From: Paracoccaceae bacterium
GTDB taxonomy: Bacteria > Pseudomonadota > Alphaproteobacteria > Rhodobacterales > Rhodobacteraceae
Assembly: GCA_007131945.1 (NCBI GenBank)
Contig: SLPP01000101.1
Coordinates: 1 to 15,321, forward strand
Length of the DNA stretch: 15,321 nt
Direction: 5' to 3'
Program-made: the position numbers and the translations under genes
Notes under the pieces: generated by a model
Database searches by the model: none
Told to the model about the DNA's origin: nothing
What the model saw: the letters and a program-made list of their open reading frames with translations, nothing else
Shown: piece after piece, positions 2,670 through 15,321 of the stretch
How positions within the stretch are numbered: the first letter of the stretch is position 1
How the letters are laid out: every line of letters starts with the position of its first letter

Positions 2670-3743
2670 TCAGTTTGCTGCGACAGGGTTTGGCCACCAG
2701 CGGAAGCCGGTCTGGCTGCGGACGAGTTCTCGATCGTTGCCGAGAGTTATGCAGCGCTCGGCGACGACGGCATCGAGTTCGGCCAGGCTGTCGAAGTGGC
2801 GGTTGACGATCGGCGCGTCGACATGGACCCAGAGGGTCTCGGCCGGCTGAAGCTCGGGGGTGTAGGGTGGGAGGTGAACGAGGCGGATGCCCTCGGGCAC
2901 GGCGAGCGGCGCGGTGTGCCAGCCGGCGCCGTCGAGAACGAGGATGATGATCCGGTCGCGCCCTGCGCCAGCCTCGCGGGCGAAGAGCGCGAGGGTGCTC
3001 TCGAACAGGTCCTTGTCGACCCCGGTCCCGAGATGACCTGCAGCTCTCGCCCGTTGCCGGCGAGACGAAGGCGGTGACGTAGAGCCATTCGAAGCGGTGG
3101 TGGACGCGGGCGACGGGGCGCTGGCCGCGCGGCGCCCAGACCCGCCGCAGGATCGGCTTCAGTCCGATGCGGTGCTCGTCGGTGGCCCAGGATCGAACGG
3201 GGACCTCGATGACTGCGCCGGGATGGCGCGCCGTCTCCTCGGCGACGATTTCGGCGCGTTCTTTTTGAACGCCTCCCGCTCTTCAGGCGTCGCTGCCCTT
3301 GCATGTTGCGGCCGCGGCCGCTGGGTGGTCCAGCCGATGGCACGCAGCGCCTCCCAGCCGCGCTGCGCGGCCACCGAGGCCAGTCCGAGTTCGCCGGCCA
3401 TGACCGCCGCCGCCATCTTCGCCGTCCACACCCCACCGTCGTCGGGCGGGGTCTTCACCCGCGCGCGCAGCATCGCAAGCACCTCGGGCGTCAGGAGGGT
3501 CGGCCGGGCACCGCTGCCGCAGCGCCGGTCGCCCAGGCTCGACGGACCGAAGTGGTTGTAGCGCTCGACAAGTTCCTCGACCCAATGCCGCTTGAGGCCG
3601 GCCAGCCGCGCCACCTCGGCGCAGCTCCGCCCCTCTGCCAGCAGCCAGATCACCTGGAAATGCCGCGCCAGCGTCGCATCCTGGTTCGCTCGCCAGCCCG
3701 CCTGAAGCTCGCCGACGCCGAGATGATCCACAACCTGCACCAT
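2670..3743 (-). pseudogene. IS630-family transposase, broken by frame changes
   Basis: Three pieces together cover a full IS630 transposase of about 355 aa. The N-terminal part (3743 down to about 3262, from MVQVVDHLGVGELQ) has the helix-turn-helix region (CAEVARLAGLKRHWVEELVE). The middle part, one frame back, reads ERAEIVAEETARHP, then SWATDEHRIGLKPILRRVWA with the first Asp in DEHRIG. The C-terminal part reads LDGAGWHTAPLAVPEGIRLV and then PPYTPELQPAETLW, supplying the second Asp and the final Glu. The first shift is at 5'-TTC AAA AAG (3261-3269) and is a -1 shift. The second is a net one-base insertion somewhere in about 3020-3050, where the usual GESFWYLS-type segment is scrambled. The first could be programmed slippage; the second looks like real damage. 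I could not identify convincing ends or a TA duplication. Confidence 0.85.
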
Positions 3744-3982
3744 GCCTGCCCCCTGCGGTGTCGTTGGGCAGAACACTATAGCATTCGATTCCCGCCGGGA
3801 ATCCTCACCGCCGCGAGTCAATCAGCCGGAAGCCGTATCAGCCCATCGAACCCATGCCCTTTGACCTCGCAGCCTGAGAAACCGATCATCCTTCACGTGC
3901 CCGGAGCACGCCGTCAGGAATTACCACAGCATTCGCGACACGACCCGGCGCAGTGCGTCTCGCTGTTTCTTCCTCGGGTTCT
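3744..3982. other. Intergenic stretch between IS630 remnant and ABC operon end
   Basis: I see no credible gene here. The stretch includes ACACTATAGC (3773-3782), which could be near the IS630 right end (these elements target TA), but I found no matching left end. A short hairpin CGTGC-CCGGA-GCACG (3896-3910) lies 75-90 bp downstream of the ABC permease stop and has no T-run, so it is a weak candidate for the operon terminator. Confidence 0.4.
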
Positions 3983-4783
3983 TCATTCTTGTGTTGCGGT
4001 CTTGCGGGCCATCATGCCGCGGGCGGGATTGTACCCGAGGATTGCAAGCGCCAGCAGCACCGCACTGGTGGCGACGACGATGCCGGTGGCCTCCCAGTTG
4101 AACTGGCTGTAAAGCGCAAAGCGGATCATCTCCACGGCATGGGTGAAGGGGTTCAGCTCGGCGACTCGGGCGATCAGCGGGCTCGCCTCTCGCAGGCGCC
4201 AGATCGGATAGAGCGCCGAGGACAGGAAGAACATCGGGAAGATCACGAAGTTCATCACCCCCGCGAAATTCTCAAGCTGTTTGATGAAGGACGACAGCAA
4301 CAGGCCCAGCGAACCGACCATGAGCCCGGTCAGGAACAGTGCCGGTAGGATCATCAGAAAGCCGTTTGTCGGCAGACGGATGCCATAGAGCGAGGCGATC
4401 AGAAGAAAGGCATAGACCTGCACGATGGAGACAAGCGTGCCCGCGACCAGCTTGGCCACCAGCAGGAAGCCCCGCGGCAGGGGGCTGACGAGCAGCACCC
4501 GCATCGAACCCATCTCGCGGTCGTAGACCATCGACAGCGAGCTCTGCATGCCGTTGAACAGCTGCACCATCCCGATCAGGCCGGGGATGATGTAGACCTC
4601 GTAGAGGATGTAGGTCTGGTACGGCGGCGAGATCGCGACGCCCAGCGCCATGCGGAAGCCCGCGGCAAAGACGATCAGCCAGACCAGCGGCCGCACGAGC
4701 GCTGCAACGAAGCGCCCGCGTTGCTGCACGAAGCGCAGAAGCTCGCGCCACACCACGCCCCAGAAGCAGCGCAGGTAGATCAT
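3983..4783 (-). CDS. ABC-2 type permease of PQQ-dehydrogenase-linked transporter
   Basis: A 266-aa inner-membrane protein with about six hydrophobic segments: around residues 28-45, 60-80, 110-132, 140-165, 172-195 and 230-250. It has the ABC-2/NodJ-like layout and conserved features such as MVYDREMGSMRVLLVSPLPR (the cytoplasmic coupling region) and FFLSSALYPIWRL. It overlaps the upstream ATPase gene by 4 bp (ATGA), so the pair is translationally coupled and forms one transporter. It belongs to the permease type found beside PQQ-dependent alcohol dehydrogenases. The substrate is not visible from sequence. Placement downstream of xoxFGJ and resemblance to the lut set of Methylorubrum extorquens suggest lanthanide transport (inference). 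It appears to be the last gene of the operon. A decayed relative lies at 13421-13842. Confidence 0.92.
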   Translation of the reverse strand: MIYLRCFWGVVWRELLRFVQQRGRFVAALVRPLVWLIVFAAGFRMALGVAISPPYQTYILYEVYIIPGLIGMVQLFNGMQSSLSMVYDREMGSMRVLLVSPLPRGFLLVAKLVAGTLVSIVQVYAFLLIASLYGIRLPTNGFLMILPALFLTGLMVGSLGLLLSSFIKQLENFAGVMNFVIFPMFFLSSALYPIWRLREASPLIARVAELNPFTHAVEMIRFALYSQFNWEATGIVVATSAVLLALAILGYNPARGMMARKTATQE

Positions 4784-5565
4784 GCCGCCATGCCCGTGAG
4801 CGCCTCAAAGGCGGCGGCGATGGAGGCGACGCGCGCCTCGGCGGTGACGGCGGCGACACTGCCATGGGCCTTGATCCGGCCGCGGTCCAGCACGACGACG
4901 GTGTCGCCGTCATGGACCTCGTCGATCAGGTGGGTGGCCCAAAGCACCGCGACGCCATCCTCGGCCGCAAGCCGGTGCACATGGGTCACAAGGTCCCGGC
5001 GGCTCCGGATGTCCAGTCCGACCGTGGGCTCGTCGAGCAGCAGCAGGCGCGGGGCGTGGATCAGCGCCCGGGCGATCTCGACCCGCCGGCGCTGCCCGCC
5101 CGACAGGGTACGGACCCGGTCGCGCAGACGCCCGGCCATGCCGACGCGGTCGAGCTTCTCTGCAATGCGCTCGTTCGCGAGGCGACCGGGCATCCCGTGC
5201 AGCGCCGCGTGATAGGCGAGGTTCTGACCCACGGTGAGGTCGAGGTCCAGCGTCGGCTGCTGGAACACGACGCCGAGCCGGGCAAGCGCCGCGCGCGGCT
5301 CGGATCGCACGTCGTGGCCGTCGATCGCGATGCTACCCACCCGGCGGTCGTACAAGCGCGTGACGAGGGAAAAGAGCGTGGTCTTGCCCGCGCCATTGGG
5401 CCCGAGCAACACAACGAACTCGCCCCGCGCGATGGCAAGGCCGATGCCATCGAGCACCGGTCTGCCCGAGTAGCTGAAGCTAAGGCCAGCGATCTCGAGG
5501 GCGGCGGGTGCCGGCCGGTGCCCTTCGGCGCACACGCTGCGCGGATCGTCCACCGGCCCGGCCAT
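4780..5565 (-). CDS. ABC transporter ATP-binding protein, PQQ-dehydrogenase-linked family
   Basis: A 261-aa cytoplasmic ATPase with all nucleotide-binding motifs: Walker A GPNGAGKT (55-62), Q-loop Q102-Q103, signature LSGGQ (154-158), Walker B LLLLDEP (174-180) and switch His H212. About 20 residues precede the usual ABC domain start (ALEIAGLSFSYSG). The start codon ATG at 5565 shares one base with the stop of the beta-propeller gene (TGATG), and the 3' end overlaps the permease by 4 bp. It therefore sits firmly inside the operon and energises that permease. It fits the ATP-binding family named for PQQ-dependent alcohol dehydrogenase systems. The substrate is unproven; lanthanide or cofactor handling is the best guess from context. 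Confidence 0.94.
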   Translation of the reverse strand: MAGPVDDPRSVCAEGHRPAPAALEIAGLSFSYSGRPVLDGIGLAIARGEFVVLLGPNGAGKTTLFSLVTRLYDRRVGSIAIDGHDVRSEPRAALARLGVVFQQPTLDLDLTVGQNLAYHAALHGMPGRLANERIAEKLDRVGMAGRLRDRVRTLSGGQRRRVEIARALIHAPRLLLLDEPTVGLDIRSRRDLVTHVHRLAAEDGVAVLWATHLIDEVHDGDTVVVLDRGRIKAHGSVAAVTAEARVASIAAAFEALTGMAA

Positions 5566-6536
5566 CAGTCAACCACGATCACACCCCACGGGAACCGGCC
5601 CACCGGGATCGAGCGCACCGGCTCCAGCCTCTCGACATCGATCATGGTGACGTCTCCGCTCACGCCATTGGTGGTAAACAGGCGGGTCTCGTCGCGGCTG
5701 AGCGCCAAGTGCCAAGGCCGCTGCCCGACGAGAAGGTAGTCCAGCACTTCGAAGCTGCCCTGATCGACTACGGCAATGCGGTTCGAGGGACCGAGGGCGA
5801 CGAAGCCATAGCGGCCGTCCGATGTCAACTCCACGCCCACCGCCTGCACCGCCTCGCGCGGCACGCCCGGCACGTCGAAGATGATCGTGTGGATGATCTC
5901 GAACTCGTCCATGTCGATCACCGACACCGTGGCGCCGATCTCGGACGAGACCCAGACCTGCGCGCCGTCCTTGGTGAACTCGGCGTGGCGGGGCCGGGCG
6001 TCCACCAGGATGTTGTGCTCAATCTGCATGGTCTCGGTATTGATGAAATGCGCGAAGTTCGAGGTCTCTGTGGTGCTAACCACCCAAGCGCCGTCGGGGC
6101 TTACGGCGATGCCCTCGGGTTCGACTCCCACGGGGATCTCGGTCACGCGGGTGCGGGCCTCATAGTCGAGGACGGTGACGATGTTGTCGTCCTCGTTCGA
6201 GATATAGATATAGGGCCGGTTGGGGTCGACGCGGATCACCTCCGGGTCGGGGCCCGAAGCGAGACTGGCGGTGACTTGGTGGGTTTCCACATCGATCACA
6301 TCCAGTACTCCATCGTCGCCGGCGGCGACGAACAGCATGGTGCCATCGTTGCTCAGCGCCATGGCGCGGGGGCGCCGGCTGACCTCGATGGTGTCGATGA
6401 CCTCGAGGGTTTCGCCATCGATCACCGACAGCGTGTTGTCGACCTCGTTAGAGATGAAGATCTTTTCGGCCAGCGCGGGCGGGGCGACGACGAAGGCAGC
6501 GGTGACGGCTGCGATCAGGGTCCGGGGTTCGGGCAT
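5565..6536 (-). CDS. Periplasmic YVTN beta-propeller protein, PQQ-linked family
   Basis: A 323-aa exported protein: signal peptide about residues 1-23 (cleavage near ALA-EKI), then seven or so repeats of the YVTN type, such as KIFISNEVDNTLSVIDGETL, YIYISNEDDNIVTVLDY, VWVSSEIGATVSVIDMDEF and LFTTNGVSGDVTMIDVERLE. Each strand pattern ends in a V-x-D motif. This matches the beta-propeller family associated with PQQ-dependent catabolism. It is rich in Asp and Glu, as expected for a metal-handling periplasmic protein, but no binding site can be assigned by eye. The start at 6536 has AGAGAGGA 9-10 nt upstream. The stop touches the ATPase start. In the lut cluster of methylotrophs a similar protein accompanies the ABC transporter. 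Confidence 0.92.
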   Translation of the reverse strand: MPEPRTLIAAVTAAFVVAPPALAEKIFISNEVDNTLSVIDGETLEVIDTIEVSRRPRAMALSNDGTMLFVAAGDDGVLDVIDVETHQVTASLASGPDPEVIRVDPNRPYIYISNEDDNIVTVLDYEARTRVTEIPVGVEPEGIAVSPDGAWVVSTTETSNFAHFINTETMQIEHNILVDARPRHAEFTKDGAQVWVSSEIGATVSVIDMDEFEIIHTIIFDVPGVPREAVQAVGVELTSDGRYGFVALGPSNRIAVVDQGSFEVLDYLLVGQRPWHLALSRDETRLFTTNGVSGDVTMIDVERLEPVRSIPVGRFPWGVIVVD

Positions 6537-6561
6537 GTCTGTCCTCTCTGGGTTTGCGGTG

Positions 6562-6585
6562 GCGCGGCGATCCCCGCCGCCGCGC
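6562..6585 (-). other. Intercistronic hairpin downstream of substrate-binding protein gene
   Basis: The arms GCGCGGCG and CGCCGCGC form a perfect 8-bp stem with an 8-nt loop. It begins 7 nt after the substrate-binding gene stop, inside a 56-nt gap. No U-run follows on the minus-strand RNA, so it is more likely an mRNA-stabilising or partial-termination element than a full terminator. Confidence 0.6.
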
Positions 6586-6592
6586 GAATGGG

Positions 6593-7807
6593 TCAGCGGG
6601 CGCAGCCGGTCTCGGGCGCGTCGTGGCCAAGCGTGTCGAGCGGGCTGGACGGATGCAGGAAGCCTTCCTGCGGCGAGACCGAGGCGACCATGCGCGGGCC
6701 GGTGACGAGGATCGGCTGGCGCAGCTGGCGGTCCCAGGATCGGAAGCTGACGGGGTCGCCCATATAGACCCCAAGTTCGAAGCGGTCGCTCATGATGTAG
6801 TCCACCACCTCGTTCAGCATGGCTGACCTGGTGCGGGTGGCACCTTCGCCGATGGCCCGCACCGCGACCCAGGCGGCGAAATCGGTGGGGGTCATCCAGC
6901 GCCCGGCCAGCGCCTCGAAACGGCGGTGCAACTGCACGGCGCCCCAGCTTTCATGAGCGCGGTGCCATGCGGTTGGGATCAGCCCCTGGGTGCCCGCCAC
7001 CGGCCGCGGCCGCCAGGTCTGATAGGGAAAATACTCGCCGAAATAGTCGGTCTCGTCGATCACGATCAGGATGTCGTGGTCGGGCAGATCCTGCAGGAAA
7101 ACCGGCACCTCGCGCTGGATGGCGTGGAAACCGCCCTCGGCCCGGCGGGCGAGCGCGGTGTGCGGCCATTGCAACTCGCCGGAGATCCGGCCGCCGAACC
7201 GCACGGCCGCGCGGCGGAAGGCGTCGGCGAGGAGACGGTCCTCGTCGGAATTGCCGACCACGAGCGCCCAGGTCTGCCAGCGCTTGAAGACGAAGAACTG
7301 GGCGAGCGCGTCGGCCAGCATCGCCCGGCTGGGCGTGGTATGGTAGAGGTTGGCGTGGCACTCCTCGTTGCGTAGGGAGTCGTCGGGGCTGCCGGCATTG
7401 AAGATCACCACGCCGCCCGCCGCGTCGGTCGCCAGGATGTCGCGCAGGCGGTCTGCGGGCAAGGCCGAGACGATCCAATTCGCGCCGTCGTCCACGAGGC
7501 CCCGGAAGGCCTCGGCCGCGTCACCGTCGCGCGCGACGATCACCTCCTCCAGCAGGAACTCCTGGTTCATGAACTGGCCGGTGGCATTGTTGTCCGCGAC
7601 CGCCAGCCGCGCGCCCTGCACGCCGTCGTCGTCGATGACCGGATCGAGCAGCGAGACCGGCTCCTGCATGCCCCGTTCAAGACCGATGAAGCCGATGCGG
7701 ATCTGGTCGGCCGCACTGACCGGCGCTGCGATCAGGCCCAGCCAAAGCGTGGCCGCCAGCGTCGCGCCGCCAAGGCGTGCCCTTTCGGGTCGAAAAACCC
7801 CGAACAT
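6593..7807 (-). CDS. ABC substrate-binding protein, PQQ-dehydrogenase-linked family
   Basis: A 404-aa periplasmic protein with a signal peptide (hydrophobic about 17-34, cleavage near VSA-ADQ) and a type I periplasmic-binding fold like the branched-chain amino acid binders. The mature start is QIRIGFIGLERGMQEP. Acidic patches stand out, such as DPVIDDDG and DETDYFGEYF, and could hold a metal ion. It matches the substrate-binding family named for PQQ-dependent alcohol dehydrogenase systems. I chose the start at 7807 over an upstream ATG at 7834 because GGGGAGGGGAT lies directly before it and the signal peptide then has normal length. The gene is flanked on both sides by 56-nt gaps, each with a strong hairpin. 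The ligand is unknown; a lanthanide or a lanthanide chelate is inferred from context. Confidence 0.9.
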   Translation of the reverse strand: MFGVFRPERARLGGATLAATLWLGLIAAPVSAADQIRIGFIGLERGMQEPVSLLDPVIDDDGVQGARLAVADNNATGQFMNQEFLLEEVIVARDGDAAEAFRGLVDDGANWIVSALPADRLRDILATDAAGGVVIFNAGSPDDSLRNEECHANLYHTTPSRAMLADALAQFFVFKRWQTWALVVGNSDEDRLLADAFRRAAVRFGGRISGELQWPHTALARRAEGGFHAIQREVPVFLQDLPDHDILIVIDETDYFGEYFPYQTWRPRPVAGTQGLIPTAWHRAHESWGAVQLHRRFEALAGRWMTPTDFAAWVAVRAIGEGATRTRSAMLNEVVDYIMSDRFELGVYMGDPVSFRSWDRQLRQPILVTGPRMVASVSPQEGFLHPSSPLDTLGHDAPETGCAR

Positions 7808-7838
7808 ATCCCCTCCCCTGGTTCGTCCGGTCATGGTA

Positions 7839-7860
7839 GCGCGGGCCGAAAGGCCCGCGC
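7839..7860 (-). other. Intercistronic hairpin before substrate-binding protein gene
   Basis: A perfect 9-bp stem GCGCGGGCC / GGCCCGCGC with a 4-nt loop (UUUC on the minus-strand RNA) starts 3 nt after the stop of the cupredoxin-like gene. No U-run follows. It may cut read-through in part or protect the upstream mRNA end. Confidence 0.65.
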
Positions 7861-7863
7861 GAG

Positions 7864-8322
7864 TCAGTTTCTGGATTCCACAATGATCGTGCCGACCATG
7901 CCGCGTTCGCGCATGCCGCGCACCCCGAACTCGTATGTGCCGGGCCGGATCGCGACGAAGAACAGTTCGGCCTCGCCGGCGGCCTCGAACTCGATCTCGT
8001 CCAGCGTGGCGGTCTTGATCTCAATGTCGCCAACCTCGACCTTGCGGATCCAGATGTTGCGGAAGAACTCTGGTGCGACGAGCCCATATTCGAAATCCGT
8101 GTCGGCGCGGATCACCCAGCGATAGCCCTGCCCCACCGCCAGCCGGTATTCCCGCGGCTCCATGAAGAAGTCGTTGTCTGCGCTGCCGAGAACCAGGGGC
8201 TCGAGCCGTTCGAGGCTGTGGATCGCCGGGTCGAAGAACTGGGCCTGCGCCCCCGTCACCGACAGCGCCAGCCCTAGGGCCGCCCCGGCTGCCGCACCGA
8301 ATATCCTTGTACGTAGTTGCAT
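7864..8322 (-). CDS. Exported cupredoxin-fold protein lacking copper ligands
   Basis: A 152-aa periplasmic protein with a signal peptide (cleavage near AQA-QFF at 27-28) and a C-terminal pattern typical of cupredoxins: AIRPGTYEFGVRGMRERGMV then GTIIVE (125-149). In copper-binding relatives this region carries Cys, His at +3 and Met at +8. Here the matching residues are V134, M137 and M142, so only the Met remains. The N-terminal His position appears to be Glu (about E78). It has no cysteine at all. It is therefore probably a structural or binding domain rather than a blue-copper electron carrier. A strong AGGAGG ribosome site lies just before ATG 8322, and it sits 28 nt after the upstream gene in the xox operon. 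The function is unknown; a role in metal or XoxF maturation is a guess. Confidence 0.88.
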   Translation of the reverse strand: MQLRTRIFGAAAGAALGLALSVTGAQAQFFDPAIHSLERLEPLVLGSADNDFFMEPREYRLAVGQGYRWVIRADTDFEYGLVAPEFFRNIWIRKVEVGDIEIKTATLDEIEFEAAGEAELFFVAIRPGTYEFGVRGMRERGMVGTIIVESRN

Positions 8323-8350
8323 TCTCTCCTCCTCCCGTGGGTGTTTATGT

Positions 8351-8998
8351 TCAAAGTTCAGCCTGAATTGCCCGCACGATGCGGCTCAGCCGCTCCTCCA
8401 GCAGATAAGGCTGCAGGCAGAGCGTCCGCAGCGCCCCCTGCCGGTCCTCGAACACGCGGCGTTCCCAGTGCAGTTCGTTTTCCAGCCGCTCGACCATCGC
8501 GGAGTCGGTGTCCGGGTCGCGACGGGCCTGTTCGAGCTGGTCGACGATGGCGCCCACCCGTTCCAGCCGGCCGACTTGCCCGCGCGAGTAGCGCAGGATC
8601 GCGTCGATGGTCTGGGTCCGCTCGCGCGAGATGACCTCGAATATCCCGGCGAAGAGCAGCGTCAGCTTGTGCTCCCGGTCACCCTCGACATTCTCCAGAT
8701 AGCTCCTGATCGCCTCGACGGCTTCATCCGTCGACGTTTCGCGCGCGGCGGCGACCCGCACGATACGGCTGATCTCGGGATCGCTCCACCAGGTCTCTTC
8801 GAGTTCGTCGATCGATGGCCCGGTCCAGATCGTGCCCCAGGCGAGTTCAGGTACCAGGCGCTGGACGCAGGGCCAGTCGGGTGGCCCGCCTGCGGCGCGC
8901 TGAGCCTCGGCTGTTGTTCCCGCCAAGGTTATTGCGGCGAGTGCCAGCCCGGCGGCAGCGGCGGCGGAGCGAATGCGGGCGCGGGTCCATTCAATCAT
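8351..8998 (-). CDS. Exported helical protein of unknown function in xox operon
   Basis: A 215-aa protein with a signal peptide (hydrophobic about 12-30, cleavage near AEA-QRA at 32). The mature part starts with the Trp- and Pro-rich segment PPDWPCVQRLVPELAWGTIW (39-58) and then looks almost entirely alpha-helical and highly charged, for example RLERVGAIVDQLEQARRD and VERLENELHWERRVFEDR. Two cysteines, C44 and C194, lie near the two ends of the mature chain and could pair. The start at 8998 overlaps the xoxJ stop by 4 bp (ATGA), which excludes an upstream start at 9244 lying inside xoxJ. I do not recognise a named domain. Tight coupling to xoxJ suggests a role in assembly or function of the XoxF-XoxG system. 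Confidence 0.88.
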   Translation of the reverse strand: MIEWTRARIRSAAAAAGLALAAITLAGTTAEAQRAAGGPPDWPCVQRLVPELAWGTIWTGPSIDELEETWWSDPEISRIVRVAAARETSTDEAVEAIRSYLENVEGDREHKLTLLFAGIFEVISRERTQTIDAILRYSRGQVGRLERVGAIVDQLEQARRDPDTDSAMVERLENELHWERRVFEDRQGALRTLCLQPYLLEERLSRIVRAIQAEL

Positions 8999-9888
8999 TC
9001 GGCGCCTCCTTCCGCGAGGACGAGCGGAGCGCCGCGGGCATCGAGCAGCGGCACGCCGTATTCTGCGAGGATCTGGTTTATCTCGTTCTGGCGGCGATCG
9101 ATGAAGTCGTTGATCCAGTCCTTCCACAGCGGTTCGTTGCGCCGGATTCCCATGGTGATCCTGAAGTCGAGCCGGGCGCCCGAGGGGTCCGGCACGGCGA
9201 GGGGCGCGACCTTGAGCGGCGGGTCGTACTGCTGGGCGAACCAACCGGCGATCGGACCCCAGAGAACCGCCGCCTCGGTTACGCCTTCCGCCACATCCTC
9301 GATCGCCTCGCGCACCGGGTTGATGGCGCGCGTATCGACCATGAGCTGGTAGCTTTTCACCTGCGCGCCCGCCTGGCGCAGAGGCACGACTGGCGGCGTG
9401 TCGGTGACCACACCGATCCGACGCCCGCGGAGTGCCTCATCGACCAGGTTTGCGACCTCAAGGTCGGACTCCGCCGACATCACAACGGTGTAGGTCGAGC
9501 GGAAATAGGCGTTGGTGTTCTGCACGAGTTCGTAGCCGGCGGCGACCCCGATGATGACGTCGCAGACCCGAAGCTGTAGTGTGTTCCGGACGAAGCCCAT
9601 GATCTGGGGAGCGAAGACGTAGCGCAACTCCACGCCGAGATCCTCGGCCATCAACTCGGCGATCCGGTTCTCGAAGCCTTCTCCCGCATCGTTCGAGAAC
9701 GGCATGTTGTTGCCGTCGGCGCATACCCGAACCGACCCGCGCTCGATGAGTTCCGGCGGCCCTGCCAGCGCCGGTACAGCGAGCCACGACAACAACGCGG
9801 CCACCACGGCCCTCATGCTAAGCGGCGAGATGGCGCGGCTGCTCGAACCCGGTGGTAGAAGCGCCTCTCTCCCTTTCCGGCGACTCAT
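8995..9888 (-). CDS. xoxJ: XoxJ, periplasmic binding-type partner of XoxF
   Basis: A 297-aa exported protein of the family described as quinoprotein dehydrogenase-associated substrate-binding proteins (XoxJ/MxaJ). The diagnostic start of the mature chain is VRVCADGNNMPFSND then GEGFENRIAELMAEDLG, with cysteines C56 and C109. XoxJ is thought to help convert apo-XoxF to its active form rather than to import a solute. I place the start at 9888, four bases after the xoxG stop. This leaves a long N-terminus before the hydrophobic signal segment MRAVVAALLSWLAVPALA. ATG 9918 (overlapping xoxG) or ATG 9816 (directly at the signal segment) are alternatives, and none has a strong ribosome site. The 3' end overlaps the next gene by 4 bp. 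Confidence 0.92.
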   Translation of the reverse strand: MSRRKGREALLPPGSSSRAISPLSMRAVVAALLSWLAVPALAGPPELIERGSVRVCADGNNMPFSNDAGEGFENRIAELMAEDLGVELRYVFAPQIMGFVRNTLQLRVCDVIIGVAAGYELVQNTNAYFRSTYTVVMSAESDLEVANLVDEALRGRRIGVVTDTPPVVPLRQAGAQVKSYQLMVDTRAINPVREAIEDVAEGVTEAAVLWGPIAGWFAQQYDPPLKVAPLAVPDPSGARLDFRITMGIRRNEPLWKDWINDFIDRRQNEINQILAEYGVPLLDARGAPLVLAEGGAE

Positions 9889-9892
9889 GGCG

Positions 9893-10351
9893 TCATTCGG
9901 ACCCTTGCGTGTCACCATTCTCCTCGAGCAGCCGGGGCCGGCCGCGCGGCAGTCCGCCTTCGACGCGGGCGCCGAGATAGTTCCAAATGTCTACCACATG
10001 CGACATCACCCGGGGGTCGTCTGCAAAGGACGGCATGACCATTCCCGGCCTGAAGCTGAGTCCCTCGGCAATCGAAATCGCGAAATCTTCGAAGGAACGC
10101 CGCTCCGCCGCCCGCAGCAAGCTCGGCGCAAAGGACGAACCAAGGCCGTCGGGCCCGTGGCAGGCCATGCATGAACCGGTGTAGACTTCCCAACCCCTCA
10201 TCGTGCTGGCATCGACCCGACCGTTCTCCACCACGAATTCGAACTTTCCGCTGGCTTCCGCCTCCTCAGCAAGTCCCGCCTGGCCCCAGGCGAGCGCCAA
10301 TGCCAGAGCGCCCACCAACGTCGCCACGTTTGCCTTCGTTATTCCAATCAT
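9893..10351 (-). CDS. xoxG: XoxG, c-type cytochrome electron acceptor of XoxF
   Basis: A 152-aa exported cytochrome c with one heme. The signal peptide covers about 1-28, the heme motif is CMACH (61-65), and the axial Met is M104 or M106 in RPGMVMPSFADDP. The segments EVYTGSCMACHGPDGLGSSF and DIWNYLGAR fit the c553i/XoxG type that takes electrons from lanthanide methanol dehydrogenase. The start at 10351 gives a normal signal peptide and has AGGGGAA just upstream; an in-frame start at 10402 would put 17 charged residues in front. It is separated from xoxF by a terminator-like hairpin and 172 nt, so it may be transcribed at a lower level. xoxJ follows immediately. Confidence 0.93.
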   Translation of the reverse strand: MIGITKANVATLVGALALALAWGQAGLAEEAEASGKFEFVVENGRVDASTMRGWEVYTGSCMACHGPDGLGSSFAPSLLRAAERRSFEDFAISIAEGLSFRPGMVMPSFADDPRVMSHVVDIWNYLGARVEGGLPRGRPRLLEENGDTQGSE

Positions 10352-10419
10352 TGCTTCCCCTGGCCATTCTTCCGACGATCTTCGCCGTCCCTGCACCCAC
10401 ATTTGTTCGAGTTTGTCGC

Positions 10420-10430
10420 GATGCTAGCGA
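10420..10430 (-). promoter_or_regulatory. Possible -10 element upstream of xoxG
   Basis: On the minus strand, TCGCTAGCATC resembles TTGCTAGCGTC, the end of the promoter-like element of xoxF (12426-12467). It lies between the xoxF terminator and xoxG, about 70 nt before the xoxG start. No good -35 is visible. It may mark a second promoter for xoxG onwards, but the case is weak. Confidence 0.25.
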
Positions 10431-10490
10431 AGGCAACGGCCACAGGCCATCTCTCGCGCCACTTGCATGAATCACATCACCGACAGAAGA

Positions 10491-10520
10491 ACGGGGCGGC
10501 CTCGCTGCCGCCCCGTTTTT
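10491..10520 (-). terminator. Rho-independent terminator after xoxF
   Basis: A perfect 10-bp stem ACGGGGCGGC / GCCGCCCCGT with a 6-nt loop begins 7 nt past the xoxF stop. On the minus strand it is preceded by an A-run and followed by TCTTCTG. On the plus strand it is followed by TTTT, so it could work in both directions. It probably trims xoxF transcripts and limits read-through into xoxG. Confidence 0.85.
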
Positions 10521-10523
10521 CGC

Positions 10524-12335
10524 TCAGTTATCAGGAAGTTCGAATACGGTCAGCACACCGCCGAGGTTGGTGTAGTCCGACAGAGCGGCGAATACACCGA
10601 CGGCGCCGAGACCCTCTTCCGGATCGGTGAGCCCGGCTGCGAGGCCGATGCCTGCCCAGCCCCCGACGCCCGACAGAATGGCGACGTACTGCTTGCCTTC
10701 ATGCATGAAGGTATTGACGTTGCCGATGATCCCGGACGGGGTCTTGAAGCTCCACAGTTCCTCGCCGGTCTCGATGTCGACCGCCCGCACCCAGCCCTCG
10801 AGCGTGCCGTAGAAGGCCAGATCGCCCGCCGTGGCCAGCGCGCCCGACCAGACCGCGAAGGTCTCGTCGATCTCCCAGACCATCTCCATGCTGACCGGGT
10901 CCCAGGCGATGAAGCTGCCAAGCCCGCCATGGCTGTGCTCGAGGGGCGAGGGCATCATGGTCAGCGTCGCGCCGACATACGGCTGCCCGGCGATATATTC
11001 GACCTGGTAGGGCTCGTAGTTCATGCAGATCCGGTTGATGCCGGAGACGATGATCCCGCGCCCCGGATGCCAGGCCGAGGGCTGCATGTTCTTCGCGCCC
11101 ATCGCGGTGGGGCAGATGTCGGTCGTGTTGACGTTCACGCCCTGCGCAAAGGTGCTGAACTCGGGGTCGACCACCGGCCGCCAGGTGTCGGTGTCGTAAT
11201 GGGTCGCCCAGTTGGTCTCTGACGCGAACTTCTCGATCTTGATCGGCACGCCGGTCTCGCGGTCGATCAGCATGGCAAAGCCGGTGCGGTCGATGATGTG
11301 CAGCGCCTTGCGCATCTCGCCGTCGACCTCGACATCGATCAGCACGTTCTCGTTGACGCCGTCATAGTCCCATTCGTCGAACGGAACCTTCTGGTAGACC
11401 CAGGCGACCTCGCCGGTATCGGCGTCGCGCGCGAAGACCGAGATGGAGTACTTGTTGTCTGCGGGCTCGCCGTCGATGGTGCGCTGGTCGGGGTTCCAGG
11501 TGCCGGGGTTGCCGGTGCCGTAGTAGATCAGGTTCAGCTCGGGGTCATAGGTAATCCAGCCCCAGACCGTCCCACCGCCGATCTCCCATTCGCCCTCGGG
11601 ATAGGTGTTGATCCCGAGATCCTCGGCAATCGGTTCGCCCAGCATGCGCGAGTTCGACGTGATCAGCACCTCGTTGTCCGGGCCGGTGGAATAGCCGCGC
11701 CAGACCCGTTCGCCGGTCTCGATGTCATAAGCGGTGACATGGCCGCGGACGCCGAACTCGCCGCCCGAATTGCCCACGATGACCTTGTTGCCGACCACCA
11801 GCGGCGACATCGTCATGGTCTCACCCATGGTGTGGTCGCCGTTCTGCGCCTCCCACAGCAGATCGCCCGACTCCGCGTCCAGCGCGATCACGGTGTTGTC
11901 GGCCTGAGCCAGGAACAGCTTGCCATCGGCATAGGCAAGGCCGCGGTTGACCGTGTCGCAGCACATTACCGGAATCACGCGCGGATCCTGGTCCGGCTCA
12001 TAAGACCACAGCATCCGCCCGTTGTCGTTCATGTCGAGGGCGAAGACCTTGTTCGGAAAAGGCGTGTGGACATAGAGCCGGCCGTCGCCGACATAGAGCG
12101 GCCCGCCCTCGTGACCGCGCAAGACGCCGGTCGAGAACTGCCACGCCACCCGCAGGTTGCCGACATTGTCCCGGTTGATCTGGTCGAGTTCGCTGAAGCG
12201 ATGACCGTGGTAGTTGCCGAGCGCGACCGCCCAGAGTTCCGGCTGCTCCTGCATTTCAAGCACATTCTCGTTGGCGTATGCGGCGCCCGCCAACATGACG
12301 GCGGCAGACGCCATCAATGCATTCCGGAGATTCAT
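10524..12335 (-). CDS. xoxF: XoxF, lanthanide-dependent PQQ methanol dehydrogenase
   Basis: A 603-aa periplasmic quinoprotein oxidising methanol to formaldehyde or formate. The signal peptide is cleaved near AYA-NEN (21-22). The eight-bladed PQQ propeller shows the vicinal disulfide C125-C126 (VIPVMCCDTVNRGLAY), metal ligands E193 in GGEFGVRGH and N276 in GTGNPGTWNP, catalytic D323, and the extra Asp D325 in DEWDYDGVN. D325 is the hallmark of lanthanide enzymes; calcium-type MxaF has a smaller residue there. The C-terminus SGVGGWAGIGLAAGLTDP is also XoxF-like, most like the XoxF5 clade. An insertion (about TIDGEPAD, 286-293) lies between N276 and the catalytic loop. GGGAGGACAACCGAG precedes the ATG at 12335. 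No mxaF or mxaI is present. Confidence 0.96.
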   Translation of the reverse strand: MNLRNALMASAAVMLAGAAYANENVLEMQEQPELWAVALGNYHGHRFSELDQINRDNVGNLRVAWQFSTGVLRGHEGGPLYVGDGRLYVHTPFPNKVFALDMNDNGRMLWSYEPDQDPRVIPVMCCDTVNRGLAYADGKLFLAQADNTVIALDAESGDLLWEAQNGDHTMGETMTMSPLVVGNKVIVGNSGGEFGVRGHVTAYDIETGERVWRGYSTGPDNEVLITSNSRMLGEPIAEDLGINTYPEGEWEIGGGTVWGWITYDPELNLIYYGTGNPGTWNPDQRTIDGEPADNKYSISVFARDADTGEVAWVYQKVPFDEWDYDGVNENVLIDVEVDGEMRKALHIIDRTGFAMLIDRETGVPIKIEKFASETNWATHYDTDTWRPVVDPEFSTFAQGVNVNTTDICPTAMGAKNMQPSAWHPGRGIIVSGINRICMNYEPYQVEYIAGQPYVGATLTMMPSPLEHSHGGLGSFIAWDPVSMEMVWEIDETFAVWSGALATAGDLAFYGTLEGWVRAVDIETGEELWSFKTPSGIIGNVNTFMHEGKQYVAILSGVGGWAGIGLAAGLTDPEEGLGAVGVFAALSDYTNLGGVLTVFELPDN

Positions 12336-12390
12336 CTCGGTTGTCCTCCCATGTGAGATGCTCGCAGGTTCCAGGCCATGTCTTCTCCCG

Positions 12391-12415
12391 AAAAATCAGC
12401 CACGGCCTCCGTGAC
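12391..12415 (-). promoter_or_regulatory. Hairpin with U-run in xoxF leader
   Basis: The minus-strand RNA can form GUCACGG-AGG-CCGUGGC (12399-12415, one G-U pair), followed by UGAUUUUU (to 12391). It lies between the promoter-like element and xoxF, about 55-80 nt before the start codon. It looks like a small intrinsic terminator and could be an attenuator or just a 5' stabilising stem. Confidence 0.4.
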
Positions 12416-12425
12416 CCGACCCCAG

Positions 12426-12467
12426 GACGCTAGCAAATCGCGCGACCTGCAACAATGCAACCAAGGT
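12426..12467 (-). promoter_or_regulatory. xoxF promoter-like element, repeated at window end
   Basis: Read on the minus strand, this 42-bp stretch runs ACCTTGGTTGCATTGTTGCA... to ...GCGATTTGCTAGCGTC. It contains a possible -35 TTGTTG and -10 TAGCGT 17 bp apart, with a TTGCA direct repeat overlapping the -35. The start of transcription would fall near 12420, giving a leader of about 85 nt. The same 42 bases recur exactly at 15280-15321 in the other orientation, which shows the element is conserved as a unit. The promoter reading is inferred. Confidence 0.65.
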
Positions 12468-13165
12468 TCTATGCCGGCGCCGCGCCATTCGCAGGATAGC
12501 CAGGGCCAGAGTCGGACGGTCCGTCTCTGACACCGTGAGAGGTTGCCATTGCCCCTACGACGCCGCCCAACTATCCAGCTTCATCCTGGGTCCGAACCCG
12601 GGCGTGGCGCGAGGCCCTCAACTCGGTTGTCGGCGGGAAGAAGCATGTCAGGGTAGTCGCATGGCCCTGGCGAACCGCGCAGCGTCCCTTGCGGCTGAGG
12701 GCGGGATGGATTCCCAGGGGAGGACCCATCCCTCGGAGCCGATCGCCGCCCTGCGGCTGTTTTTTCCGCCTTCGAAGACTTCTCCGGTCCCCGCGCCGGG
12801 AACACCCGGCACGACCTTGGCGAGCTGCGCGTCATCGTCTTCGTGTCCGTGCCATGCAGCGCGACGTGCCTCACGCTGAGTTGACGGCCTTCGGCCGCGT
12901 GCTGGCCGATGTCCCAGCCCTGCCTCGCGCGAGGTTGATGTCATCGCCGTCATGGAAAAGAACCGGGACCGTGGCCGCAGTGGGGCCGCGCAAGCCCGAC
13001 GAACGCTGCGCGGCGCCCGCGACGCGGGCGAAACCGCGCCAACGCGGATGATCGTCTCGGCCCTCAGCGGCGCGGCTGATCGAGCGGACCCTCGCATGGC
13101 CGGGACGCTGCCGGCGCCTTTCGAAGAACTCGGAAAACCCATCGTCAGCGCCAGGGCCTAGGTGC
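12468..13165. other. Stretch with no recognisable gene upstream of xoxF
   Basis: About 700 bp of GC-rich DNA with several open frames on both strands (for example 12535-12879 plus and 12648-13142 minus). None has a recognisable domain, a good ribosome site or coherent protein character; compositions are Arg/Pro/Ser/Ala-rich as in shadow frames. In related bacteria regulators often sit beside xoxF, so this may be a decayed gene region. I see no remnant that I can name. Confidence 0.5.
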
Positions 13166-13240
13166 TTGCCTCCCACATCCGACACGTCACGTGCCACCTT
13201 GCAAGAACCTGAAAACATGACAATAGTTGTTCGATCCCAC

Positions 13241-13420
13241 GGCTTGATGGTGCGATCCTTTCGCAGGAATGGAAGGAAGCATTACGTGACGACGACGCAC
13301 GCCGTCAGAGCCGCGATACAGCGATCGCAAGCTTCGCTCGCGCGGTTGAGCCGGGAGCTGGGCATCAACCTCAGGACAGTCGCGAAGTGGCGCAAGCGAG
13401 CGACGGTTGAGGACCTGCAA
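13241..13420 (+). pseudogene. N-terminal fragment of IS481-type transposase
   Basis: The plus-strand frame contains TTTHAVRAAIQRSQASLARL then SRELGINLRTVAKWRKRATVED (from about 13289). This is the helix-turn-helix N-terminus of IS481-family transposases, which commonly begin MGQVLHGSATTTxAVR. Here the residues before TTTHAV are altered and the usual start is lost. After VEDLQ the frame runs straight into sequence of an ABC permease near 13420 instead of the transposase catalytic domain. No catalytic residues remain. It is a scar of an insertion or deletion. Confidence 0.7.
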
Positions 13421-13842
13421 GTCTGTTCATTCCTGCCGATCGCCCGGGCCTGGGGCATCCGGCCGCCGATCGGTTTTCTGAACGTGCTGCCGGCGCCTTT
13501 CCTCAGCGGCATGATCCCGGGCGCTATCGGGTTGCGGCTTGCCTCGGCAATCAGGCAGATGGAGAACACGACGGCGTCATGAACTTTCTGTTCTTTCCGG
13601 TTTTCCTCGCTTCGTTCGCGCTGTATCCGCTCTGGCGCCTGCGCGGGTTAAGCGTGCTTCCGTACGACTTCGCCGCCTCCAACCCCTTCATCCATTGCGT
13701 GGAGCTGATCCGCTCCGCGCTCTATGGCCAGATAATTCGACTCGCTTTCGCGATGGTTCTGGCATGCCTGGCGGCGTTCCTGAGCGCGGCGGTCCATGCC
13801 TTCGAACCCTGCAAGGGGCTGATCGGGCGGCGGCGCGGCTGA
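13421..13842 (+). pseudogene. Decayed second ABC-2 permease (C-terminal part)
   Basis: Two adjacent frames match the C-terminal half of the permease at 3983-4783. The first (13421-13582) reads VCSFLPIARAWGIRPP...FLNVLPAPFLSGMI...IRQMEN against VYAFLLIASLYGIRLP...FLMILPALFLTGLM...IKQLEN. A one-base deletion near 13565 moves the reading to the frame starting MNFLFFPVF (13579-13842), which continues SFALYPLWRLRG, SNPFIHCVELIRSALYGQ and ends FEPCKGLIGRRRG. The similarity is partial, so this is an old paralog and not a recent copy. The N-terminal half is gone, replaced by a transposase fragment. A short product from the ATG at 13579 is conceivable but unlikely to be functional. Confidence 0.75.
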
Positions 13843-13919
13843 ACGGTCATACCTTTTGCCGAGTTGTCGCTTTTCTGCAAGGCTGACAGCCTCGGCGAGG
13901 AGGCCGGCACGGCTATGCG

Positions 13920-13957
13920 TTGCTCCACCGGGCTGACGCGTCAGTCCGGTGGAGCAA
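13920..13957. promoter_or_regulatory. 38-bp near-perfect palindrome upstream of frmA
   Basis: The arms TTGCTCCACCGGGCTGACG and CGTCAGTCCGGTGGAGCAA are complementary except for one pair (G-T, a wobble in RNA), with no loop. It ends 26 bp before the frmA start codon. There is no T-run on either side, so it is not a typical terminator. It could be an operator for a dimeric regulator of formaldehyde oxidation, a leader hairpin, or paired ends left by a lost mobile element. Confidence 0.6.
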
Positions 13958-13983
13958 GTTCGGCGCAACAAGGAGGAAGGGAC

Positions 13984-15114
13984 ATGCGGACACGGGCAGC
14001 GGTAGCTTTGGCGGCGGGCAAGCCGCTGGAAATCATGGAGGTCAATCTCGAAGGCCCTCGCGCGGGCGAGGTCTTGGTCGAGATCAAGGCGACAGGGCTG
14101 TGCCATACCGATGACTTCACGCTTTCCGGCGCCGATCCCGAGGGGCTCTTTCCCGCGATCCTCGGACATGAAGGCGCCGGCGTGGTTGTCGAGGTCGGCG
14201 ACAGCGTGACCAGCGTCAAGCCGGGCGACCATGTGATCCCGCTCTACACTCCCGAGTGCCGGCAGTGTGCGTCGTGCCTCAGCCAGAAGACCAACCTCTG
14301 CACCTCGATCCGCGGCACTCAAGGCCAGGGACTGATGCCGGACGGCACCTCGCGTTTCTCCACGCTCGATGGTGACCCGATCCTGCATTACATGGGCTGT
14401 TCGACCTTCTCGAACTTCACCGTGCTTCCTGAGATTGCCGTGGCGAAAGTGCGCGAGGACGCGCCCTTCGACAAGATCTGCTACATTGGCTGCGGCGTGA
14501 CCACCGGCATCGGCGCGGTCGTCAACACCGCCAAGGTCGAGATCGGTGCCAAGGCCGTGGTCTTCGGCCTGGGCGGGATCGGCCTCAACGTGATTCAGGG
14601 GCTGCAGCTTGCCGGCGCCGACATGATCATCGGCGTCGACATCAACAACAACCGCAAGGAATGGGGCGAGCGTTTCGGGATGACGCATTTCGTCAACCCG
14701 CGCGAGTTGGACCTGCCTGTGGCGCAGCATATCGTGAACATGACCAAGACGCCTTTCGACCAGATCGGTGGGGCGGATTACAGCTTCGACTGCACGGGCA
14801 ATGTGCAGGTGATGCGCGATGCGCTCGAATGCACGCATCGCGGCTGGGGCGTGTCTGTGGTGATCGGGGTCGCCCCCGCCGGGGCCGAGATCTCGACCCG
14901 CCCTTTCCAGCTGGTCACAGGGCGCGTCTGGAAGGGCACGGCATTTGGCGGTGCGCGGGGGCGCACGGATGTGCCGAAGATCGTCGACTGGTACATGGAG
15001 GGAAAGATCCAGATCGACCCGATGATCACGCATCTGCTCAAGCTCGAGGAGATCAACAAGGGCTTCGAGATGATGCACCGAGGCGAGTCAATCCGTTCGG
15101 TGGTGGTCTTCTGA
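13984..15114 (+). CDS. frmA: S-(hydroxymethyl)glutathione dehydrogenase, class III ADH
   Basis: A 376-aa cytosolic zinc, NAD-dependent dehydrogenase, full length for glutathione-dependent formaldehyde dehydrogenase (called flhA in Paracoccus, adhI in Rhodobacter). Catalytic zinc ligands are C40 (GLCHTDD), H62-E63 (GHEGAG) and C170 (GCGVTTG). Structural zinc is held by C92, C95, C98 and C106. The NAD site is GLGGIG (195-200) with D219 at the end of the second strand. FSTLDGDPILHYMGCSTFSN is typical of class III. The start at 13984 has a strong AGGAGG 7 nt upstream; an in-frame ATG 40 codons earlier runs across the palindrome and adds no family sequence. The enzyme oxidises the glutathione adduct of formaldehyde from XoxF. 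It is transcribed away from the xox operon. Confidence 0.96.
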   Translation: MRTRAAVALAAGKPLEIMEVNLEGPRAGEVLVEIKATGLCHTDDFTLSGADPEGLFPAILGHEGAGVVVEVGDSVTSVKPGDHVIPLYTPECRQCASCLSQKTNLCTSIRGTQGQGLMPDGTSRFSTLDGDPILHYMGCSTFSNFTVLPEIAVAKVREDAPFDKICYIGCGVTTGIGAVVNTAKVEIGAKAVVFGLGGIGLNVIQGLQLAGADMIIGVDINNNRKEWGERFGMTHFVNPRELDLPVAQHIVNMTKTPFDQIGGADYSFDCTGNVQVMRDALECTHRGWGVSVVIGVAPAGAEISTRPFQLVTGRVWKGTAFGGARGRTDVPKIVDWYMEGKIQIDPMITHLLKLEEINKGFEMMHRGESIRSVVVF

Positions 15115-15279
15115 TCAGGGCGCCGGCTTTGTCGCGCCAGGCCGGGGTTCGGGCCAAGGTTGCATCGGCGTGGAGCGGCGGCGGCGCCATCAGGGCGATG
15201 TCAGTCCCTCGTGGCGTCGGCTCCGAATCGCCTGTTGCGGCCGATCCCCATCCTGTGAAGGGCGCGGAGGCGATATCGT
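15115..15279. other. Intergenic stretch after frmA
   Basis: I see no gene here. A weak stem GGCGC...GCGCC (about 15119-15138) without a T-run follows the frmA stop. The stretch leads into the promoter-like repeat at the right edge. Confidence 0.5.
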
Positions 15280-15321
15280 ACCTTGGTTGCATTGTTGCAG
15301 GTCGCGCGATTTGCTAGCGTC
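15280..15321 (+). promoter_or_regulatory. Second copy of xoxF promoter-like element
   Basis: All 42 bases to the window end match the xoxF upstream element (12426-12467) exactly, here in plus orientation: ACCTTGGTTGCATTGTTGCA... to ...GCGATTTGCTAGCGTC. The match may continue past the edge. The possible -35 TTGTTG and -10 TAGCGT are both present, so transcription would begin just outside the window and read rightwards into an unseen gene, probably one co-regulated with xoxF. Confidence 0.65.

Follow-up and report, generated by a model that had tools for sequence, protein, structure and literature searches.

A possible duplicated xoxF-type promoter region at both ends of a frmA segment in a Paracoccaceae contig

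C1 regulons and methanol clusters in related bacteria

As described in excerpts of two papers, FlhRS of Paracoccus denitrificans and AfdRS/RfdRS of Rhodobacter sphaeroides provide a response regulator for several promoters, with frmA-type, fghA and methanol-dehydrogenase genes among the targets (PMC8879981, PMC4776306); the same excerpts hold no binding-site consensus for FlhR/AfdR regulators. A literature search returned no paper joining FlhSR, xoxF and Paracoccus. The succession frmA-fghA-cytochrome c-xoxF is found on three of four Rhodobacterales plasmids inspected, the stretch shown of the fourth (Paracoccus alcaliphilus) having no frmA, and on the Mameliella plasmid genes for a response regulator and for FIST-domain and PAS-domain proteins lie upstream of it.

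The DNA considered here (the window) is the whole of contig G000:C30, 15321 bp, from a Paracoccaceae genome bin. It shares with the plasmid clusters of Salipiger, Paroceanicella and Mameliella the placement of frmA beside xoxF genes. In contrast to those clusters, its xoxF is divergent from frmA and belongs to another lineage (~60% identical), and insertion-sequence and permease remnants separate the two genes. The features of the right-hand part of the window are as follows.

10524-12335, minus strand: gene for an xoxF-type methanol dehydrogenase (best solved match XoxF 6oc5; D-Y-D at residues 323-325)
12336-12425, minus strand: xoxF leader, the 90 bp between copy 1 and the start, with a hairpin and T-run at 12416-12398
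12426-12467, minus strand: copy 1 of the 42-bp core, preceding xoxF (GTTGCA at 12461-12456 and 12453-12448; GCTAG at 12434-12430)
12475-12612, minus strand: diverged flank upstream of copy 1, related to 15132-15272
12765-12899, no strand assigned: ISAs1-family transposase-like remnant between the two copies, from DNA matches
13224-13290, plus strand: 67-bp stretch, 87-91% identical to Rhodobacterales plasmids among the matches listed
13414-13842, plus strand: C-terminal part of the native gene abcM for a PedC-like ABC permease, now in two different frames; neither piece reaches the whole-protein cut-off
13984-15114, plus strand: frmA, S-(hydroxymethyl)glutathione dehydrogenase, with 95% identity to the gene of locus L076 and 92% to an incomplete copy in L078
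15132-15272, plus strand: diverged flank upstream of copy 2, past the frmA stop
15280-15321, plus strand: copy 2 of the 42-bp core, truncated at the contig end (GTTGCA at 15286-15291 and 15294-15299; GCTAG at 15313-15317)

An identical core with related flanks

The bases of 12426-12467 (minus strand) match those of 15280-15321 (plus strand) at all 42 positions, and both copies face outward. A first-pass annotation had drawn attention to this identity and had placed the core outside coding DNA, as an inverted pair around frmA and the permease scar. All of this is borne out: base composition predicts ~2e-16 such pairs in the window, where the runner-up exact repeat, direct or inverted, is 17 bp long; copy 1 is overlapped by no open frame of at least 80 aa; and the pair is a perfect inverted one with a 2.8-kb segment between its members. 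Copy 2 overlaps a single mechanical frame (14661-15317), which is out of frame with frmA and is taken for spurious.

Many genomic copies unrelated to methylotrophy, named in the first-pass annotation as the mark of a mobile repeat, are not seen. A search of the 3.29-Mb bin with a 41-base pattern at up to three mismatches yields two occurrences, and a 34-base core pattern, again at up to three mismatches, is present in one of 194 genomes, its own, with no match in the 193 relatives. The best core match among the fetched loci of other genomes, 25/41, is at background level. An exact 23-base piece of the core has no match in viral contigs, nor has 15100-15321 any in the plasmid collection. A candidate third copy in contig C147, with three mismatches to a 20-base piece, was dismissed, lying as it does inside a 588-aa coding frame read as an ABC exporter. 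The insertion-sequence remnants between the copies would suit a mobile or REP-like repeat, but the count of two, the lack of the core in the relatives and of viral and plasmid matches, and the ~2e-16 expectation speak against repeat and chance alike; both are largely refuted, and we give them next to no credence.

The flanks of the core had been described as different. They have indeed diverged, but they can be compared on the upstream side only, and there they are related. The adjacent 100 bp are 62% identical without gaps, against a mean of 29% and a maximum of 45% in 2000 dinucleotide shuffles; a gapped alignment of 12475-12612 with 15132-15272 has 95 identical columns out of 143, a figure that 2000 shuffles never come near; and BLAST returns core plus flank as a single 72% match of ~190 bp. 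The finding is thus two paralogous, diverged versions of one upstream region, in which the core is conserved to an unusual degree. With the identity of the flank, 42 straight matches have a probability of ~2e-9 (0.62 to the power 42), so that their explanation calls for selection, gene conversion or an assembly effect. The proposal of a shared regulatory site or a duplication survives in part: the element is promoter-like and the related flank marks a duplicated upstream region, but the second copy has no visible gene, the core being seen at two sites and a gene (xoxF) at one.

Core motifs and xoxF promoters

The core contains two GTTGCA words 8 bases apart, which include the TTGCA direct repeat noted earlier, and a GCTAG box located 99 bases before the xoxF ATG. 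The -35 and -10 boxes suggested with that repeat fared less well: a simple sigma-70 scan of 12300-15321 finds no promoter, and so they are not consensus boxes. The leader between core and start codon has no structural stability beyond that of shuffled sequence (z 0.60), and terminator-like sites in 12300-15321, the xoxF-leader hairpin included, number 2 against a mean of 2.6 in shuffles.

Related upstream regions were taken from 80 xoxF loci, the best 80 of 176 confirmed. Identity is at least 74% in 36 of the 80, and 35 upstreams were used, L037 dropping out because its start could not be assigned by the rule applied. That rule for start codons is simple, and in a few loci (e.g. L030, L031, L048, L049) the start it assigns is displaced by some codons. 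The word TGTGCTA occurs 60-130 bases before the start in 31 of the 35, although these 31 come from close relatives and are not independent. In place of this Halomonadaceae-type box the window carries TTTGCTAGC, with GCTAG at -99; GCTAG within 60-125 bases before the start is met in 6.6% of shuffled upstreams. The upstreams without TGTGCTA (L029, L032, L039 and L058) are by their titles not from Halomonadaceae, and thus the box may be a feature of a single family.

The window resembles the Halomonadaceae xoxF promoters in that the XoxF proteins are 74-78% identical and GCTAG is placed similarly relative to the start. It differs in that TTGTTGC, where present in Halomonadaceae, lies 150-196 bases before the assumed start, whereas in the window it lies at 120, and in that no Halomonadaceae xoxF upstream has two GTTGCA words 8 apart. 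In an Aquisalimonas MAG (L032) two GTTGCA words precede the start by 44 and 28 bases, a spacing of 16. In Halomonadaceae xoxF upstreams (e.g. L028, L031) TTGTTGC...GCAATAGTC stands ~80 bases upstream of TGTGCTAGAC, possibly as a regulator site. The native Rhodobacterales xoxF box, GTCATACTT, seen here in three of eight native loci, has no exact copy on either strand of the window, a weak test given that the other five native loci lack the box as well. A near form of it, GTCATACCTT, is located at 13846, upstream of frmA rather than xoxF.

An acquired operon beside a native remnant

The leftward operon consists of xoxF, a cytochrome gene, a gene for a MoxJ-like protein and a PQQ-associated ABC system. 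The second aspartate of the D-Y-D in XoxF is a mark of lanthanide use. The nearest relatives of XoxF in the species collection (74-78%) come from Halomonadaceae, an Ectothiorhodospiraceae MAG, two Aquisalimonas MAGs, a Rhodovibrio MAG and Aquamicrobium, and their gene order is similar where the contig is long enough. Within its own genus such an xoxF was detected in one of 18 genomes at E 1e-100, namely its own, and in a family sample drawn evenly from a larger group it was detected in three of 394 at E 1e-250, again its own and two others at 64%. The xoxF genes of L076 and L078, the loci with the closest frmA genes, are 59-60% identical to that of the window. On sequence comparison, then, the xoxF operon looks acquired.

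The other arm of the locus has the opposite affinity. In the Rhodobacteraceae MAG of L076 a homologous abcM precedes frmA, and 13414-15116 of the window aligns with that stretch at 80% over 1718 columns. With xoxF nearest to genes outside the family and frmA nearest to Rhodobacteraceae, an acquired operon would lie beside the remnant of a native cluster, and the whole (3983-12335 plus 13414-15114) forms a chimeric methanol cluster, xoxF matching Halomonadaceae and a few others and frmA matching Rhodobacteraceae at 95%. To the left of the ABC genes are an IS256-family transposase gene (1091-2386) and a piece of an IS630-family transposase (3159-3821).

What may lie to the right of frmA

A C1 gene to the right of copy 2, beyond the contig end, is plausible from comparative gene order. 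An xoxF directly after frmA is present in L029 and L032; in the other 78 of the best 80 of 176 loci this is not so, or frmA is absent or farther away. Among 20 fetched frmA loci of the family, xoxF stands beside frmA in three (L131, L134, L143), the intervening gene being for cytochrome c in L134 and L143 and a frame read as S-formylglutathione hydrolase in L131; no xoxF was detected in the stretch fetched for the other 17. The closest relative gives little further extent, its contig (L076) ending 7 bases past the last frmA codon. In the related bin G486 the contig with frmA continues past it into frames that were read, without family search, as encoding a rhodanese-like protein and enzymes of nicotinamide metabolism; since two frmA contexts are collapsed in that assembly, however, it does not settle the native gene to the right of frmA. 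Within the bin of the window no second xoxF, complete or partial, was found at E values up to 0.001 (five candidates scored); accordingly, the gene on the right is not an xoxF, or it is lacking from the bin, or the assembly has merged it with the known copy.

The contig end

Position 15321 is the end of the contig. The contig end cuts copy 2, so that 42 bp is a lower limit and the flanks are comparable on one side. The bin (3,292,963 bases, 417 contigs, 92% complete) is fragmented, and the G+C content of C30, 65.0%, is lower than the 66-72% of five small samples from other contigs; its membership of the bin is therefore not certain.

The main rival of a duplicated promoter is an assembly effect, in which the contig stops on entering a longer or collapsed repeat and the length of 42 bp is set by the assembler rather than by a regulatory unit. 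We regard this as possible, though somewhat unlikely. In one variant the 42 bases of copy 2 would be the beginning of a longer sequence that is also present on the xoxF side, either a second, nearly identical xoxF region or a variant within the population that has frmA directly before xoxF, an arrangement that does exist (L029, L032); in another, the last bases of copy 2 would be borrowed from the xoxF copy. That a contig end falls exactly within the shared stretch would be a coincidence of well under 1% were ends random, which suggests that the stretch caused the end. Neighbouring assemblies offer parallels. In G486 the frmA-bearing contig C354 shares exactly 121 bases with the end of C129 and with that of C251, two contigs with different upstream contexts (L153, L154, L156), the picture of collapsed frmA copies; in the own bin C343 and C8 have an exact 115-base common start; and the start of C30 (1-58) resembles the end of C399, with three mismatches in 58 bases, so that these two may be neighbouring contigs. 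These clean overlaps of 121 bases in G486 and 115 in the own bin (one example) are nevertheless not 42 bases long; 42 is thus an unusual overlap length here, which argues against the plainest form of the assembly effect. The related but diverged flank, moreover, indicates that the right-hand region is a genuine paralogue and not only a chimeric tip, and a long shared stretch would predict a break on the xoxF side too, where there is none.

Paralogous promoters or an invertible segment

We are evenly balanced on the reading that the window holds a duplicated xoxF-type promoter region, whose second copy would most likely serve a second, rightward C1 gene beyond the contig. The two copies would be paralogous promoter regions of C1 (methanol) genes. 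Copy 1 would drive the xoxF operon leftward and copy 2, behind frmA, a predicted rightward gene, for which the best candidates are fghA, a cytochrome c gene and xoxF. The GTTGCA words would form the putative site of a shared activator, perhaps a response regulator of the FlhR/AfdR type, and the GCTAG box would lie near the transcription start. The core would thus comprise activator site and start region, and selection or gene conversion may have kept its 42 bases identical while the flank diverged.

Several lines of evidence point to paralogous promoters: a 42/42 core adjoins a flank of 62-66% identity; the copies lie between genes, face outward and are the only two in the bin; GCTAG precedes the xoxF ATG by a distance similar to that of TGTGCTA in the relatives; and frmA is followed by fghA, cytochrome c and xoxF on plasmids and by xoxF in the two loci already named. 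Against this reading stand the halt of the contig in copy 2, the lack of a consensus sigma-70 promoter, the absence of the core from 193 relatives, the possible restriction of the TGTGCTA box to one family, the rarity of xoxF beside frmA in the family loci (3/20) and the lack of a second xoxF in the bin.

The cores could also act as inverted repeats for recombination, by which the 2.8-kb frmA segment would flip and the flipped frmA would read into xoxF. A perfect inverted pair does surround frmA, and the flipped order would be that of L029 and L032. No recombinase was recognised, however, in the frames of the segment examined (those in 12468-13166 being compared by DNA only), no second orientation was seen, and since both promoters would face outward whichever way the segment lay, inversion would affect frmA alone. 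We consider such inversion very unlikely. Slightly less probable still is an elaboration of it, an outward-facing unit in which the acquired xoxF operon and the native frmA remnant share identical promoters flanking an invertible 2.8-kb segment, recombination toggling frmA between a unit of its own and an operon that runs on into xoxF, with the two outward C1 operons co-regulated throughout.

If the duplicated promoter region is real, it would provide a natural promoter pair for mapping the site of the xoxF regulator and predicts a C1 gene just outside the contig; it would also show how a methanol operon gained from elsewhere can become established next to a native formaldehyde gene and come to have control elements in common with its surroundings. 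If the assembly effect holds instead, the lesson is one of caution: where a seemingly conserved element lies at the end of a contig, it is the assembler that sets its length.

The segment between the copies

Between the cores, the 67-bp stretch at 13224-13290 is a probable insertion-sequence remnant, to judge from its plasmid matches, and a sub-cut-off HTH match follows just after it. Upstream of frmA, 13846-13889 reads GTCATACC, then GAGTTGTCG and GCTGACAG. The latter two also occur in L076 and in contig C129 of G486 (L154), and GAGTTGT also in L078; by this sequence conservation the words likely belong to a conserved frmA promoter. A known-RNA search gave only an RsmY match, far below the cut-off, at the frmA start. 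A near-perfect 38-bp palindrome at 13920-13957 ends 26 bp before frmA and was not seen in the matching stretch of L076. The same bin has a second frmA (L026; G000:C35:3954-5060), 77% identical to that of the window.
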